This document shows positions 15,594 to 43,757 of a stretch of DNA of 54,415 bases, one piece after another. The stretch is taken from assembly GCA_017960985.1 (NCBI GenBank), contig JAGCYD010000073.1, forward strand, positions 1 through 54,415. The letters run 5' to 3'. Every line of letters begins with the position of its first letter. Positions within the stretch are counted from its first letter, which is position 1. This DNA comes from Bacteroidaceae bacterium. GTDB lineage: Bacteria > Bacteroidota > Bacteroidia > Bacteroidales > Bacteroidaceae. Both the position numbers and the translations under genes were made by a program. The notes beneath the pieces were generated by a model. That model was not told the origin of the DNA, made no database searches, and saw only the letters and a list, made by a program, of their open reading frames with translations.

Positions 15594-16721
15594 ATGAAAC
15601 GCATATACCTATTTCTTATAGCCCTCATCGGCACTCTCCATTCTCCACTCTCCACTCTCCACTTTTCTATGGGGTCTTCTCTTTTTGCTCAGGTCAGCGT
15701 TGAGGCTCGCATCGACAGTCTTCAGATTCTTATCGGGCAGCAGACGGGCATTACGCTGGAGGTTAGTTGTGGCGCGAAGCAACTGGTGGAACTCCCCGTT
15801 TTCCAGTCGGGACAGATGATGACAGGAGGCGTAGAAGTGGTTTCCATGACTGCGGCAGATACCACGAAACTGAACGACGGCAAGCGTATGACTGTCAGTC
15901 GAAAATATATTATCACCTCTTTCGATGTCGAACCATTGGGAGATACCCTGTTCAGCATACCGCCTTTGAAAGTAAAGGTTGACGGAAAGGAATATCTCTC
16001 CAAGAACCTGGCGCTCAAGGTCTATTCAATGGATGTTGATACGGTGCATGTCGATCGTTATTGTGGCCCGAAAGATGTGATGAATGCTCCTTTTGCTTGG
16101 GAAGACTGGCGAATGGTTGTCTGGAGCAGCATTCTGTTTGTCCTACTTTGTATTTGCATTGTGGTGATGGCGGTTTCGTTGTACACAGGCAAACCTATCA
16201 TTCGCATTGTGCGTCGGAAACCAAAGGAGCCGGCTCACAAGGTAGCCCTTTCCGAGATAGAGAAGATAAAGTCGGAACGCACCTGGGCACAGGAGGATTC
16301 CAAGGAGTATTATACGCAACTGACGGATACACTCCGTACCTATATCCAGAATCGTTACGGCTTCAATGCTATGGAAATGACGAGTGGAGAAATTGTCGAG
16401 CGGTTAATGGATGCCAATGATGAAGATACACTCAACGACCTTCGTGAACTTTTCCAGACGGCAGACCTTGTGAAGTTCGCCAAGTGGACAACGCTGATTA
16501 ACGAGAACGATGCAAACCTGATGACGGCTCTGGAATATATCAACCAGACCAAACAGGAAGTTGACCCGAACCAGAAGCCGGAAGAGATAATCATTACACC
16601 CGAGCAGAGACGGCAGCGTGCCACCATCTGGACACTTCGCATTCTGATAGGTGTCGGCAGTATTGTTTCTATCGCACTCGTCGTTTGGATTATATATCGC
16701 ATCATTGACCTGCTAAGATAA
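15594..16721 (+). CDS. BatD-like membrane protein of the Bat cluster
   Basis: This 375-residue protein has a signal peptide, a periplasmic beta-rich part resembling the N-terminal region of BatD (IDSLQILIGQQTGITLEV; FSIPPLKVKVDG), a membrane segment near residues 178-202, a cytoplasmic helical part (DTLRTYIQNRYGFNAMEM) and a C-terminal membrane helix (about 350-373). The same place in other Bacteroidetes Bat clusters is taken by a similar unnamed gene. Its signal-peptide codons hold four 7-bp repeats (15633-15660). The exact role is unknown; a place in the periplasmic Bat complex is an inference from context. Confidence 0.75.
   Translation: MKRIYLFLIALIGTLHSPLSTLHFSMGSSLFAQVSVEARIDSLQILIGQQTGITLEVSCGAKQLVELPVFQSGQMMTGGVEVVSMTAADTTKLNDGKRMTVSRKYIITSFDVEPLGDTLFSIPPLKVKVDGKEYLSKNLALKVYSMDVDTVHVDRYCGPKDVMNAPFAWEDWRMVVWSSILFVLLCICIVVMAVSLYTGKPIIRIVRRKPKEPAHKVALSEIEKIKSERTWAQEDSKEYYTQLTDTLRTYIQNRYGFNAMEMTSGEIVERLMDANDEDTLNDLRELFQTADLVKFAKWTTLINENDANLMTALEYINQTKQEVDPNQKPEEIIITPEQRRQRATIWTLRILIGVGSIVSIALVVWIIYRIIDLLR
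15633..15660 (+). repeat. Four 7-bp tandem repeats inside a signal-peptide coding region
   Basis: ACTCTCC, ATTCTCC, ACTCTCC, ACTCTCC. Because 7 is not a multiple of 3, gain or loss of one unit would shift the reading frame of the 15594 gene. Confidence 0.85.
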
Positions 16722-17762: not shown

Positions 17763-18791
17763 ATGTTCAGATTTGAAAACCCACAATATCTCTATCTGTT
17801 AGTCGTACTTCCTGTACTGGCGGCGCTATTCTATTATAGCAACTATCGTCGCACGAAGCGCCTGAAGGCTTATGGAGACCTCGACTTGTTACGGGAACTG
17901 ATGATTGATGTCTCCGTTTGGCGACCGCAGGTGAAGATGTGGCTTTTATTGTTGGCATTGGCCTGCCTGATTGTTGCTGCTGCCCGTCCGCAGTACGGAA
18001 CGAAGATAGACACCACCGAACGCAACGGCATCGAAGCCATCATTGCGATGGATGTATCCAACTCCATGTTGGCCAACGATGTGCGTCCCAGCCGTTTGGA
18101 CAAAGCCAAGATGCTTGTGTCCAATATGGTTGATGACATGAAGGACGACCAGGTGGGACTGATAGTCTATGCCGGTCAGGCTTTCGTACAGTTGCCCATT
18201 ACCAACGACTATGTATCGGCCAAGATGTTCCTCGAAACCATTTCGCCCTCGATGATAAATGTGCAGGGTACGGACATCGCCACAGCCATCGACCTCGGTG
18301 TACGAAGTTTCACCCAGAAGAGGGATGTGTCGCGTGCTATATTTCTTATTACCGACGGCGAAGACAACGAGGGTGGGGCAGTGGAAGCTGCCAAGGAGGC
18401 AGCCAAGAAAGGCATACATGTCTATGTCCTCGGCGTAGGAAGTCCCGATGGCGCACATATTCCCATTCCGGGCACCACACAGTATTTCATCGACGAAGAG
18501 GGCAATGCCGTCGTTTCCCGTCTCAACGAGGAAATGTGCCGTCAGATTGCACAGGCAGGTCGTGGCGCCTACATCTATGTCGATAACAGCAGTTCGGCAC
18601 AGAAGGAACTCTCCCACTATGTCGAGAAGTTGGCAAAAGCCAAGTTGGAAAGTCAGATATACAGCGAATACGACGAACAGTTTCAGGGCTTCCTGCTCCT
18701 TGCCCTCCTGTTCCTCTTCCTCGACATCTGTCTGCTCGAGCGCAAGAACCATATCCTCCGCAACTTCCATCTGTTTAAGAAAGAAAAATGA
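17763..18791 (+). CDS. batB: BatB, VWA-domain membrane protein
   Basis: A paralogue of BatA: 342 residues, an FENPQYLYLL start typical of the family, two N-terminal membrane segments, MIDAS motif DVSNS at residues 97-101, a TDGEDNEGG block and a C-terminal membrane helix followed by a basic tail. It is likely to pair with BatA in the membrane complex. The last four bases overlap the batC start (ATGA), indicating coupled translation. Confidence 0.93.
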   Translation: MFRFENPQYLYLLVVLPVLAALFYYSNYRRTKRLKAYGDLDLLRELMIDVSVWRPQVKMWLLLLALACLIVAAARPQYGTKIDTTERNGIEAIIAMDVSNSMLANDVRPSRLDKAKMLVSNMVDDMKDDQVGLIVYAGQAFVQLPITNDYVSAKMFLETISPSMINVQGTDIATAIDLGVRSFTQKRDVSRAIFLITDGEDNEGGAVEAAKEAAKKGIHVYVLGVGSPDGAHIPIPGTTQYFIDEEGNAVVSRLNEEMCRQIAQAGRGAYIYVDNSSSAQKELSHYVEKLAKAKLESQIYSEYDEQFQGFLLLALLFLFLDICLLERKNHILRNFHLFKKEK

Positions 18792-19513
18792 AACGCATAC
18801 TCCTCCTTATCATAGCCCTCGTCGGCACTCTCCAGTTCTCAGTTCTCAGTTCTCAGTTCTCAGTTGGAGAAGCCTTCGCCCAGTCCTATCGCGACTATAT
18901 CCGTCGGGGCAACCGTCAGTATCGCGATAGCATCTACGACAAGGCACAGGTGCAGTACCAAAAGGGATTCGAGAAAGATTCAAACAGTGTGCAGATAAAC
19001 TACAACCTTGCCAACTCCCTCATGCTTCAGGGACAGCCCAAGGAAGCCATGCGCCTTTACGAGAAGGCCAGCAAGGTGGAACACAATCGCGTGCGCCGTC
19101 ATCAGATTTTCCACAACATGGGTGTCATTCTGCAAAGCCAGAAACAGTTCGGTCCTGCCGTTGAGGCCTACAAGGAAGCCCTGCGTTGCGACCCCTCCGA
19201 CAACGAGACACGCTACAACCTTGTCCTTTGTCAGCATCAGATGAAGAACCAACAGGACAACCAGAATCAAGACAAGAACCAAGACCAAAACGAGAACAAA
19301 GACAAGCAGGAGCAACAACAGCAGAAGCAACAGCAAGACCAGCAGCAGAAACAGGACAAGCAGGAGCAACAACAGCAGCAGGAGAACCAGATGAGCCGTG
19401 AAAATGCCGAACAAATGTTGAATGCTGCGATGCAAAACGAGCGACAGACACAGGACAAGGTGAAGAAGCAACTGCAGGAAGCCCGTCCCCGTCGCTTGCA
19501 AAAGCAGTGGTAG
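18788..19513 (+). CDS. batC: BatC, exported TPR protein with Gln-rich tail
   Basis: The 241-residue protein has a signal peptide, two to three TPR units (NSVQINYNLANSLMLQGQPKEA and the DNETRYNLVLC segment), a long Gln/Lys/Asp-rich low-complexity stretch (about residues 150-205) and a short conserved end, LQKQW. BatC is a periplasmic partner of BatA/BatB in the Bat system. Its signal-peptide codons contain 4.6 copies of AGTTCTC (18834-18865), another 7-bp repeat able to shift frame. A 22/23-bp repeat array begins at the stop codon. Confidence 0.88.
   Translation: MKRILLLIIALVGTLQFSVLSSQFSVGEAFAQSYRDYIRRGNRQYRDSIYDKAQVQYQKGFEKDSNSVQINYNLANSLMLQGQPKEAMRLYEKASKVEHNRVRRHQIFHNMGVILQSQKQFGPAVEAYKEALRCDPSDNETRYNLVLCQHQMKNQQDNQNQDKNQDQNENKDKQEQQQQKQQQDQQQKQDKQEQQQQQENQMSRENAEQMLNAAMQNERQTQDKVKKQLQEARPRRLQKQW
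18834..18865 (+). repeat. 4.6 perfect copies of AGTTCTC inside the batC signal peptide
   Basis: Copies at 18834, 18841, 18848 and 18855 plus a partial AGTT at 18862. Perfect repeats with a unit not divisible by three, 46 bases after the start codon. Confidence 0.92.
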
Positions 19514-19822
19514 TATAGTATTCCGAGGCCCCTTGCAATAGTATCCCGTCGCCCTTTGCAATACTAATTCAACTCCCCTCAACTATACCCCATATTGAGC
19601 ATACGGCAATCACCATGCAGTGAATACCGTATGCTTTTTAACTTTGCAGTAAGCAATTTTTCAGAGATTACCGTATGCTCGATACGAGGTATAATTACCC
19701 CCTCAAAAATCAATATTGTCTCGTCAAAAAATCAACACCGTTGATTTCGAAAATCATTAGTATTAAATTGCAAAATCATTACCGTTGATTTTGCAAATCA
19801 TCAGTGTTGATTTGATAGGGGT
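19512..19822 (+). repeat. Degenerate tandem array with 23- then 22-bp period between batC and batD
   Basis: Cores stand at exact intervals. AGTATAGTAT (19512), GCAATAGTAT (19535) and GCAATACTAA (19558) are 23 bp apart. TACCGTATGC occurs at 19625 and 19669 (2 x 22). AAATCA occurs at 19707, 19729, 19751, 19773 and 19795 (all 22). The bases between cores vary. Inverted repeats are superimposed, for example AGCATACGG / CCGTATGCT (19598-19635, followed by T5) and AAATCAAC / GTTGATTT (19729-19747). This array fills most of the gap of about 550 bp; I see no gene in it. The remainder (19823-20003) is AT-rich with no clear feature apart from an orphan TATCTTTG at 19967. Confidence 0.8.
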
Positions 19823-20003
19823 GTAAAATCCCTCGTTTTTCTTGCACATATTAAATTAAATTTCGTACATATTGCAACATCCCTACACCGATAACACGCA
19901 AATGTTGGGACAAGGATGACGGCCAGTGGGCTGTATTTGTCATATATCGCAAAATTTGTGCAAGCATATCTTTGTGTCTATGTGACATATTTTGATGTCT
20001 CGA

Positions 20004-20035
20004 TTTGATTTTGCGCTCGGTTTTCACTATCTTTG
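20004..20035 (+). promoter_or_regulatory. Consensus promoter for batD-batE
   Basis: TTTG at 20004-20007, 20-bp spacer, TATCTTTG at 20028-20035. It overlaps an in-frame TTG at 20033, which rules that codon out and places the batD start at ATG 20063. Confidence 0.87.
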
Positions 20036-20062
20036 TCGCGCGAAAGGATTTGGATTGACGCA

Positions 20063-21883
20063 ATGAAACGAACGATATTTTTTCTTGGCTGTTTACTATG
20101 TGTATTGGCTGCCTTAGCACAGGTGAAGGTAACGGTGCAGGCTCCGGCACAAACGGAGGAGGGGCAGCGCATCCGTGTGAGTTATGTGGTGAATACGCAG
20201 GATGTGGATGATATACAGGTGGGTGACTTCCCGGGGTTTGAACTATTGTTCGGACCGACGACTTCTTCGTCGAGCAGTTTCTCGATGATAAACGGAAAGA
20301 CGACACACTCCAGTCAGATGACTTTCTCCTACACATTGCTGGCACAGAAAGCCGGTTCCTATAAACTGCCTGTGGCTACGGTGAAGAGCGACGGAAAGTC
20401 GTACAAGAGCAATCAGGTGTCTATTGAGGTGTTGGAGGGTAATGGTAATTCGAACGGAAACGGGAACGCTAACGGGAACAGTGGCGGAGCAACCCGTATG
20501 CGTACGCAGGAGGCGGGTGACCGTATCACGGCCAATGACCTCTATATCACGGTGACGGCATCGAAGAAGCGGCTGTATGAGCAGGAGGCGGTGCTACTGA
20601 CCTACAAACTTTATACATTAGTGAGCATCGACCAGTGTATGGGAAAGATGCCCGACTTGGACGGATTCCATACACAGGAGATAGAATTGCCCCAGCAAAA
20701 GACGCTGAAATATGAGCGCATGAACGGCAAGAACTATGGCACGGTGGTGTGGAGCCAATATGTGTTGTTCCCACAGAAAACAGGAAAACTGACTGTGCCT
20801 GCCATCAACTTCGAAGCTGAGGTGGTGCAGCAGAACCGTAGCATCGACCCGTTTGATGCGTTCTTCAACGGCGGTTCGTCGCTGGTGCGTGTAAAGAAGA
20901 CGATTGTGGCTCCTGCTGTAGAACTGCAGGTAGAGCCTTTGCCTACGAAGCCTGCTAACTTCTCGGGCGCCGTTGGCTCGCAGTTCAATATCAGCGGTAC
21001 ATTGTCGCCCGAACAAGTGGATGCCAACGATGCCGTACAACTGCGGTTGGTTGTGAGTGGCGTGGGGAACATGAAACTGATGAAGGCCCCGACCGTACAA
21101 TGGCCGAAGGACTTTGAGACTTACGACCCCAAGGTGACGGACAAGACGAAAGTGGGCGTGAATGGTGCAAGCGGAAATGTGGTGTATGACTATACGGCTG
21201 TGCCGCGTCATGGTGGCAAGTATGCCATACCGCCCGTGGAGTTCTGCTATTTTGACACGAAGACGAATAGTTATAAGACGATACGCACCGACTCGTTCCA
21301 TGTGGCCGTAGCCAAGGGCGTGGGCAACGGAATACAAAGAATCAGGAATCAGGAGGATTTGACAGTGCTGAACAGCGACATCCGCTATATCAAGACGGGT
21401 GATGTGTCGCTGAATCCGAAGGGTAGTTCGTTCTTTGGCAGTACTGGATATTGGTTGTATTATCTGGGTGCGCTGTTGGTGTTCCTGCTGATGGTGGCTG
21501 TGTTCTATCGTCAGGCAAAGGCCAATGCGAATGTGGCGCGCCGTCGCGGAAAGAAGGCCGGGAAGGCTGCGGGTAAGCGACTGAAACAAGCTTCGAAACT
21601 GCTCAAGCAGGGAGAGGCGAATGCTTTCTACGACGAAGTAACGCGTGCGCTGTGGGGTTATGTTGGTGACAAACTGAATCTCCCCGTGGCAGAACTGAAC
21701 AAGGACAATGTGGGCGAGCAGTTGTCGCTGCGTGGCGTGGACGAAACTCTGACAAAGCGTTTCCTCGATGTACTGAGCGACTGTGAATTTGCACGCTATG
21801 CCCCGGGCGAACAGTCGGCTACAATGGATAAGTTGTACAACGATGCAGCAGAAGTGATTAACGAATTGGACGGAAGACTATGA
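20063..21883 (+). CDS. batD: BatD, exported membrane protein
   Basis: The protein of about 606 residues starts with a signal peptide (MKRTIFFLGCLLCVLAALAQ), followed by several beta-sandwich domains characteristic of BatD (VTVQAPAQTEEGQRIRVSY; GFELLFGP; TFSYTLLAQKAGSYKLP). A membrane helix lies near residues 463-486, then a basic stretch and a cytoplasmic helical domain that resembles the C-terminal part of the 15594 product. A short Asn/Gly linker (NSNGNGNANGNSGG) lies near residue 140. It belongs to the Bat aerotolerance system. batE overlaps its end by four bases. Confidence 0.9.
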   Translation: MKRTIFFLGCLLCVLAALAQVKVTVQAPAQTEEGQRIRVSYVVNTQDVDDIQVGDFPGFELLFGPTTSSSSSFSMINGKTTHSSQMTFSYTLLAQKAGSYKLPVATVKSDGKSYKSNQVSIEVLEGNGNSNGNGNANGNSGGATRMRTQEAGDRITANDLYITVTASKKRLYEQEAVLLTYKLYTLVSIDQCMGKMPDLDGFHTQEIELPQQKTLKYERMNGKNYGTVVWSQYVLFPQKTGKLTVPAINFEAEVVQQNRSIDPFDAFFNGGSSLVRVKKTIVAPAVELQVEPLPTKPANFSGAVGSQFNISGTLSPEQVDANDAVQLRLVVSGVGNMKLMKAPTVQWPKDFETYDPKVTDKTKVGVNGASGNVVYDYTAVPRHGGKYAIPPVEFCYFDTKTNSYKTIRTDSFHVAVAKGVGNGIQRIRNQEDLTVLNSDIRYIKTGDVSLNPKGSSFFGSTGYWLYYLGALLVFLLMVAVFYRQAKANANVARRRGKKAGKAAGKRLKQASKLLKQGEANAFYDEVTRALWGYVGDKLNLPVAELNKDNVGEQLSLRGVDETLTKRFLDVLSDCEFARYAPGEQSATMDKLYNDAAEVINELDGRL

Positions 21884-38208: not shown

Positions 38209-38430
38209 GGTTTGTTTTATGTTGTTCTTTTATATATGTAATACTATTATTTCATTTCAGCAGCGCAATGTACTAAATTTCTTTCAATCAAGCGCTAACA
38301 ATTAGAGCTTTTTTTATAAAGAAAGTTGTTTTCTGGACAACACAACATATGTTTTTGCCTCAATTGATGTATGATGAGTTCAACAAGACGCACGTCTTAT
38401 TTCTGTAAGACCCTATTCTTTTGCCAAAAG
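38209..38430. other. Intergenic region between divergent genes
   Basis: About 290 bp in all separate the start of the 1075-residue gene (minus) from the HU-like gene (plus). AT-rich; I see no clear minus-strand promoter. The only distinct feature is a short perfect palindrome, AAGACG-CA-CGTCTT (38385-38398), which could be an operator. Confidence 0.3.
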
Positions 38431-43619: not shown

Positions 43620-43757
43620 TAAGTATTCCCTTACCCTGCGGAATACTAATCCGCGGGCAAACACAATACTATTGCATAGCCTTGAAGATTACTATTGCGG
43701 AGACTCGTGAGATACTATTGCAGATACCGAGGAAATATTTGCCCATATATCCCCTCT
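43620..43757 (-). repeat. Tandem array with 23-bp period between divergent promoters
   Basis: Plus-strand cores ATACTAATCC (43643), ATACTATTGC (43666), TTACTATTGC (43689) and ATACTATTGC (43712) are exactly 23 bp apart, with weaker flanking units at 43620 and 43735; 13 variable bases separate the cores. In reverse complement the core is GCAATAGTAT, the same as in the batC-batD array. The segment lies between the regulator promoter and the promoter at 43781; I see no gene in it. Confidence 0.85.

Follow-up and report, generated by a model that had tools for sequence, protein, structure and literature searches.

The long array between batC and batD is a single copy of an intergenic element that is dispersed and specific to the species. 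The element carries blocks of short dyad-symmetric sites, whose centres are spaced by 22 bp in module B and by 23 bp in module A; it also includes an inverted-repeat module as an insertion and ends in a promoter-like tail. This element is itself an instance of a genus-wide class of arrays, mostly of three to six units on an exact 22-bp lattice, the sequence of which varies among species and among array blocks while the lattice and, mostly, the symmetry are kept. Hereafter, the window is the whole stretch of 54,415 bp that was analysed; its source genome amounts to 2.0 Mb in 82 contigs and is about 84% complete.

The gap between the two genes measures 519 bp, from the end of batC at 19513 to the longest batD ORF from 20033 (Table 1). 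A reading made from the sequence alone had described short cores at fixed steps, and a position check bears these out. Rows of the ATAGTAT-type core start at 19512, 19535 and 19558, the third being degenerate since it reads ATACTAA; TACCGTATGC lies at 19625 and 19669, 44 bp (2 × 22) apart; and AAATCA recurs in 22-bp steps at 19707, 19729, 19751, 19773 and 19795. The inverted repeats said to overlie the array are likewise present, several having been found by the repeat search, which concurs with TRF on a period of 23 at 19515–19563 and of 22 at 19728–19813. The lag-22 self-match score of the gap, 39.4, exceeds every score at lags 20–25 in 2000 first-order Markov shuffles (shuffle maximum 21.7), and the 23-bp part by itself scores 22.6, a value equalled in 1 of 2000 shuffles of positions 19514–19700. 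Column permutation shows that the four 22-bp units of module B are dyad-symmetric (p = 0.001) and that the three 23-bp units of module A have weak dyad symmetry (p = 0.039); an over-long array spanning the module joint gave no significant dyad in two runs (p = 0.42 and p = 0.20). Module B units read AAATCAAC-acc-GTTGATTT and variants, that is, 19 bp and then a 3-bp spacer. The proposal that the core changes along the array while the period persists stands for both core and period, but the phase is broken at the module joints, where the distances from 19558 to 19625 (67 bp) and from 19669 to 19707 (38 bp) fall off the lattice. The 'array' of this gap is three adjacent modules with one lattice each. 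A second array in the window, between divergent genes, has a clear period and a dyad test that is not significant (p = 0.25).

Table 1. Features of the window discussed in the text.
Feature	Position	Strand	
batC (TPR protein), upstream gene	18788..19513	+	
Module A: about three 23-bp units, core AATASTATT (odd palindrome GCAATA-S-TATTGC)	19515..19580	+	
Module I: inverted-repeat block of about 105 bp, AACTATACCCCATATTGAGCATACGG...CCGTATGCTCgAtACgaGGTATAATT	19581..19696	+	
Module B: 22-bp lattice, four 19-bp dyads AAATCA-N7-TGATTT, ends CCCCCTCAAAAATCA / TTGATTTGATAGGGG	19697..19820	+	
Module B dyad 1, AAATCAACACCGTTGATTT	19729..19747	.	
Module B dyad 2, degenerate, AAATCATTAGTATTAAATT	19751..19769	.	
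Module B dyad 3, AAATCATTACCGTTGATTT	19773..19791	.	
Module B dyad 4, AAATCATCAGTGTTGATTT	19795..19813	.	
Module P: conserved promoter-like tail, directed at batD	19821..19885	+	
batD, downstream gene (longest ORF; later ATG at 20063)	20033..21883	+	
Two GTAAGAC-N4-GTCTTAC-type sites (≤ 3 mismatches), 22 bp apart	38383..38422	.	
Second window array: five 23-bp units of module-A type, between divergent genes	43622..43751	.	

A sequence search of the source genome recovered 17 further copies or fragments of the element (E ≤ 5e-8; two reverse-strand matches inside copies left out): seven long copies (189–306 bp matched, 84–94% identical), five half copies (122–131 bp) and five fragments (49–81 bp). 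In the alignment of 16 copies besides that of the window, module A, with its 23-bp repeats, stands at the left end of only some. Module I, a removable block of about 105 bp with arms GAGCATACGG/CCGTATGCTC, is whole in seven aligned copies (window counted), partial in L015 and cleanly absent from L016, L019, L020 and L023. Module B has four units in most copies, three in L022 and two in L023 and L024, where exactly 44 bp are lost. Modules I and B each have inverted ends, and the 3′ tail, module P, reads TTTCCCTTGTTTTTCTTGCACATATTAAATTAAAATTCGTACATTTG. This tail fits the Bacteroidota promoter type, with TAnnTTTG at −7 and TTTG near −33 (PMC7366714), and is a putative promoter. TAnnTTTG is found 37–51 bp past the matched stretch in 8 of the 17 other copies, the rest including L019, which is cut by a contig end; the window copy has TTGC at 19842–19845, a 20-bp spacer and TACATATTG at 19866–19874, one base away from the motif of those eight.

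As is general among MITEs, the element is non-coding and recurs nearly identical at numerous unrelated loci, where the flanking genes differ save for one paralogous pair. The left-hand gene is co-directional with the element in 13 of 16 determinable copies (p = 0.02), out of 18 including the window; L208 (contig end) and L209 (doubtful short ORF) could not be determined, and the automatic call of 11/16 became 13/16 after two changes by hand, at L197 (the same copy as L010, where the forward frame ends 112 bp before the copy) and at L205 (where tRNA-Pro is nearer). Neither a clear target-site duplication nor a parent insertion sequence or parent element was found in the source genome. The end AACTATACCCC, used to seek a parent insertion sequence, gave nine exact matches, eight of them in or at known copies, and with one mismatch 35+17 matches against 13+18 in the reversed control. 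BLAST of the element against 36 other genomes of the genus returned a sole match, 44 bp of the P tail in G032, and viral contigs had no match to exact patterns of a source-genome B unit or of an AATGG pair. Two copies with a promoter tail, L011 (G000:C5) and L021 (G000:C16), precede paralogous lipoprotein-like genes (MKTISRMSRWFGA...), so that element and gene may have duplicated together. Two others lacking the right end, L013 (C71:35587-35825) and L017 (C71:6991-7114), share short outer flanks at either end (AAAGTGAGCCTTTTT-like / GAA(A)GCATTATTGGTGG), which suggests a common target or a larger element; used as an empty-site test, this flank pattern retrieved the site of L017 itself and one site with two mismatches, and hence no empty site.

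The same genome contains several types of site. AAATCA-N7-TGATTT occurs 46 times, against 0 in the reversed control, and adjacent AATASTATT pairs at 23 bp (≤ 3 mismatches) number 104, against 2 for the reversed pattern. Sites of module-A type (≤ 3 mismatches) are found at 1.58/kb in intergenic DNA (33 sites) and at 0.30/kb in coding DNA (108 sites); of 41 close pairs, 33 are spaced by multiples of 23 bp and 8 fall off this lattice. Two more palindromes, CTGGCGCCAG and AACCTGCGCAGGTT, adjoin the copies L022 and L010. In the source-genome stretches that were fetched, all their pairs within 120 bp are spaced by multiples of 22 bp (13/13 and 15/15), as are those of GTAAGAC-N4-GTCTTAC (7/7). The change of core under a constant period is seen independently at the L022/L209 locus, where four block types follow one another in the order AACCTG, CTGGCGCCAG, A, B. 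At L209:2751-3100, on contig C50, an intergenic stretch of more than 300 bp shows four palindrome types in succession with 22- or 23-bp steps.

The periodicity extends to the genus. The genus sample covered 32 genomes with 57 stretches that total 1055 kb and hold 334 intergenic segments, picked regardless of arrays; three G003 stretches chosen by pattern hit (L113-L115) and segments below 70 bp or of 1500 bp and more were left out. The score threshold was passed by 99 of the 334 segments and by 15 in shuffles. The excess of such arrays over shuffled sequence, whose absence from the genome would have counted against the sequence-only reading, is evident in the best period, which is 22 in 39 segments (from 19 of the 32 genomes), 21 in three and 23 in one, with a single shuffled segment at 22. 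These 22-bp arrays have a median of four units, and 34 of the 39 have two to six; a 23-unit array, in L129, is probably over-extended by the scoring. Among 99 source-genome segments, window included, three had a best period of 22, five of 23 and one of 44 (shuffles: one at 22). The batD search also supplied named Prevotellaceae loci, which gave four at 22 and two at 21 out of 14 (shuffles: one in all); some of these loci may belong to the same genus, since the L044 gap matches that of G021. Rumen and gut are the main sources of the named relatives of the group. No peak appeared in a sample of 108 segments (277 kb) from other families of the order, in which 23 segments were above threshold against 15 shuffled, one at 22 and two at 23. 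One stretch of another family, L143:9629-9786 (G054), holds a clear 23-bp array (score 71.8, dyad not significant), showing that similar arrays exist outside the genus.

Dyad symmetry was assessed in arrays of period 21–23 by column permutation within arrays, which preserves the repeat structure. Significant dyads (p ≤ 0.05) were obtained for 27 of 43 genus arrays, the other 16 having none, and for 4/9 arrays of the source genome, 3/6 of the named loci and 0/4 of the outgroup. Of the 30 arrays of period 22 with a significant dyad in any sample, 28 have their axis between two bases (47% under the null; p = 1e-7 after correction for self-paired columns); these arrays are not all independent, since several share a motif. 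Against this majority, the axis lies on a base in L162, in L121:1497 and in module B of the source genome. There is mostly one geometry for many sequences. In L121 (G012), two arrays that match each other unit for unit and mostly also in their spacers (17903-17982 and 19574-19653) flank a pair of genes that have no Pfam match; this may be a cassette between direct repeats.

Individual motifs are confined to few genomes. Among 61 genus genomes, AATGGTTAACCATT (one mismatch) occurs 260 times in G012, 229 in G024, 28 in G020 and 0–2 in each of the 58 others. Counts across the genus for GTTAAGTT-N4-AACTTAAC are 171 in G008, 75 in G075, 36 in G005, 18 in G012, 16 in G024, 10 in G035 and 0–4 elsewhere, and AAATCA-N7-TGATTT, besides its 46 source-genome sites, is found 26 times in G036 and 0–3 times in other genomes. 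In two 20-kb stretches of G012, all 33 pairs of AATGGTTAACCATT (≤ 3 mismatches) within 140 bp are 22, 44, 66 or 88 bp apart, and additional G012 and G024 stretches, chosen from the hits listed, had 12/12 and 34/34 pairs on the 22-bp lattice. In G036 the sites, with cores such as CGCWGCG, form arrays with 22-bp, occasionally 23-bp, steps; the lattice is present at 10/10 loci, all fetched for having a pattern hit, and 40 kb of G036 in two random stretches held no 22-bp pair of its pattern. In 40 kb of G020, three AATGG sites, with a single pair at 11 bp, showed no lattice.

BatD was found in 29 of 30 genomes and the batC–batD gap could be delimited in 28, with L259 as the exception. Nine further species have an array above the score threshold at period 22 in this gap, the lengths of which (97, 119, 140, five of 141 and 162 bp) are close to 22-bp steps. 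When the dyad phase is fitted species by species and measured back from batD, its best value is identical in 9/9, and the nine arrays presumably share descent. Their unit keeps AAC......CA|CG......GTT around inner bases that depend on the species and partly change in a matched fashion on both arms (TTAA/TTAA, GCCG/CGGC). In the relatives L041 and L042, the gap holds an unrelated 22-bp array of GAATATAGGTTC units followed by AGGCCTAAGGGCTT units. The remaining delimited gaps are short or have no lattice above threshold, and close relatives of the window organism have no array here: the gap is 19 bp in G001, and 17, 60 and 48 bp up to the BatD match in L054, L079 and L084. Loss of periodicity in close relatives, which the sequence-only reading would have counted against itself, gives a mixed picture: some of them have no array at this gap, L041/L042 have an unrelated 22-bp array, and other members of the genus retain the period. 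With distinct arrays in the window species, in L041/L042 and in the nine, arrays probably arose at this gap in at least three lineages.

What the arrays have in common is geometry and not sequence: palindromes, 22-bp steps and about four units per array. Adjacent dimers on one helix face would need such a geometry; slippage alone would not obviously produce it. The sequence-only reading had suggested a cooperative protein on one face of the DNA, and the period is indeed near two helical turns; a cooperatively binding protein is the best candidate mechanism. We put at about evens the reading that these are DNA-level binding arrays for putative dimeric proteins on one helix face, partly spread as MITE-like cassettes. 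Each palindrome would bind a candidate protein dimer in duplex DNA, and the spacing of about two turns would set three to six dimers side by side on one face, where they might bind cooperatively. Bound arrays may then act on the local chromosome, through promoter output at copies with a P tail and, elsewhere, on transcription or supercoiling between genes. The specificities of site and protein are proposed to co-evolve, which would give each species its own motifs; arrays would gain or lose whole units, and complete arrays of the source species would also spread as MITE-like cassettes. A wider and more tentative version, to which we give less than even credence, sees a lineage-wide architectural or regulatory code of the chromosome, in which dimeric DNA-binding proteins of a fast-diversifying family would read tens to hundreds of arrays of 3–6 palindromes on a 22-bp lattice, with the geometry fixed and the recognition sequence turning over between species and blocks; it would be the bacterial equivalent of satellite DNA that co-evolves with its binding proteins.

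The most serious competitor, possible although on balance rather unlikely, holds that the arrays are selfish or neutral REP-like minisatellites that multiply in gene-free DNA, through slippage and hairpin-templated repair, and are carried by some transposase, the 22-bp step being the ruler of a copying enzyme and not a host function. The near-identical units of the batC–batD array in G020 point this way, as do the exact 44-bp deletions in copies and the dispersal of a composite element in which module I is optional, whereas the narrow array size and the equal lattice phase at batC–batD in nine species do not. The distribution among gaps bears on both sides. Arrays are densest in convergent gaps (14/54 segments), followed by divergent (11/72) and tandem ones (13/173), with a significant enrichment of convergent over tandem (p = 0.001) that suits repeat elements or terminators equally as well as binding arrays; REPs are described as favouring convergent gaps too, but also unidirectional ones (PMC3733652), where the arrays are rarest. 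Conservation within the unit also argues against a selfish origin. Between the orthologous L041 and L042 arrays, identity amounts to 98/112 in one contiguous part of the unit and to 37/64 in the remainder (a second gap, out of register, was left out). A scan over all splits, equalled by 14/2000 column permutations and 0/2000 within-unit permutations, is the fair version of this comparison, the Fisher test (p = 1.4e-5) having used a split chosen on the same data; with columns set by within-array consensus only, the difference has p = 0.046 (L041) and p = 0.0006 (L042). This resembles the pattern expected of purifying selection.

Short intergenic palindromes present in many copies per genome, some species-specific, clustered and common in convergent gaps, are features that the arrays share with REP/BIME as described (PMC3733652, PMC12306157), and multi-copy intergenic palindromes they are. 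Unlike REP/BIME, they have a fixed 22-bp spacing of centres, are present in divergent gaps and are rarest in tandem ones. GTAG partners are mostly 20–100 bp apart in the published account (PMC3733652), and reading the unit rows by eye disclosed no systematic GTAG/CGTC tag beside the stem. In a Pfam search of 41 incomplete genomes, the RAYT domain (Y1, PF01797) had 0 matches in the source genome and matches in 6/24 other genus members (G003, G007, G010, G013, G017 and G022), with E < 1e-10 only in G013 and G022 and E of 1e-4 to 1e-3 in the other four. A RAYT-driven REP is unsupported, with no match to the domain in the source genome and no systematic tag in the unit rows read, and the scarcity of Y1 weighs against the selfish origin as well.

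Structured RNA, the other option of the sequence-only reading, has lost ground as the main explanation. Arrays of small hairpins, or bidirectional terminators and mRNA 3′ ends, appear improbable, even though the element folds strongly: it does so on either strand (z −8.8 and −7.1), as palindromic DNA would. G-U and A-C mismatches are equally frequent within dyads (124 vs 121, counted in arrays with dyad p ≤ 0.05; 20 vs 22 on the sense strand of the nine orthologous arrays, central position left out), which gives no clear sign of RNA pairing. In tandem arrays sense G-U is somewhat commoner (47 vs 32, p = 0.11, not significant). Transcript ends would agree with the top density in convergent gaps, the usual position of the source element after a co-directional gene (13/16) and the A- and T-runs of the G036 dyads, but T-runs are absent from many motifs, divergent gaps are rich as well, and none of eight Rfam matches reached the gathering score.

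Porphyromonas gingivalis, the host of the BrickBuilt MITE, belongs to the same order as the source organism. BrickBuilt is described as 19 modular intergenic copies with 23-nt tandem repeats inside, 1–22.8 units in varying number, a better conserved half of the unit and flanking modules with promoter activity (PMC4596501). The likeness noted by the sequence-only reading, and its qualification that the two are different, both held: the source element is similarly an intergenic modular element with internal 23-bp repeats (23-bp steps in module A, 22-bp steps in module B), a promoter-like tail and a varying unit number, and the L041/L042 arrays have a part of the unit better kept, but the units of the source element are palindromic, its arrays short and of several unit types in succession, and it belongs to a genus-wide class of changing sequence. 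The ends also differ, being AACTATACCCC/GGGGTATA in the source element and GAGACCTTTGCA in BrickBuilt, and membership in BrickBuilt is unsupported on comparing AACTATACCCC / GGGGTATAAGTT with the published description of its IS5-like TIR GAGACCTTTGCA (Table 2 of PMC4596501). A plain BrickBuilt-type MITE, with a trapped minisatellite, outward promoters and a meaningless periodicity, is very improbable: it would cover the modular build, the 18 copies and fragments, the internal 23-bp repeats and the promoter-like tail that BrickBuilt is similarly described as having (PMC4596501), but not the unlike ends or the failure to find a parent insertion sequence or target-site duplication, and it leaves the different-sequence 22-bp arrays across the genus unexplained, being weakened further by the species-specific motif counts.

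The arrays do not fit CRISPR, since the units are 22–23 bp long (CRISPR repeats, 24–48 bp; PMC3733652), with 3–10 bp between dyads and similarity from unit to unit throughout. CRISPR arrays have unique spacers of regular size and associated cas genes. The binding arrays that we favour share features with known protein-bound sites. In iterons and homodimer operator arrays, repeats about 22 bp apart, or two helical turns, are bound cooperatively on one face; each serves one origin or regulator, whereas here there are tens to hundreds of sites per genome and several sequence types. Noc boxes and matS, perfect palindromes bound by a dimer in nucleoid occlusion and chromosome organisation, resemble the present sites in being spread over the chromosome; they are not known as 22-bp phased arrays or as sites varying among species within a genus. 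The arrays are a kind of intergenic repeat element, closest to BrickBuilt by architecture and to REP/BIME by the bulk of palindromes, and there is a real chance that they are something categorically new; no description of 22-bp phased palindrome arrays was found in the open-access literature searched, subscription journals being mostly outside its scope.

If protein-bound, the arrays would constitute a large layer of chromosome organisation that the open-access literature searched does not describe, and a natural experiment of one lattice with many sequences, in which the joint change in specificity of a DNA-binding protein and its hundreds of sites could be followed directly. If selfish, they would form a class akin to REPs, with no known mobiliser and a ruler of exactly 22 bp, the question being which enzyme does the measuring. 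In both cases, BrickBuilt and other odd minisatellites may belong to a wider class.

A second period peak, separate from that at 22 bp, lies at 7 bp (27/334 genus intergenic segments, 0 in shuffles). Perfect heptamer repeats also occur in the window at 15642-15663 (TCTCCAC) and 18833-18865 (CAGTTCT, 4.7 units), both 45–48 bp past the ORF start of two bat-cluster genes, in an apparent signal-peptide region; of seven ORF-internal heptamer runs in the samples, only two lie within 150 bp of the ORF start. As seven is not a multiple of three, a change in the number of heptamer units would shift the reading frame, a possible case of phase variation.
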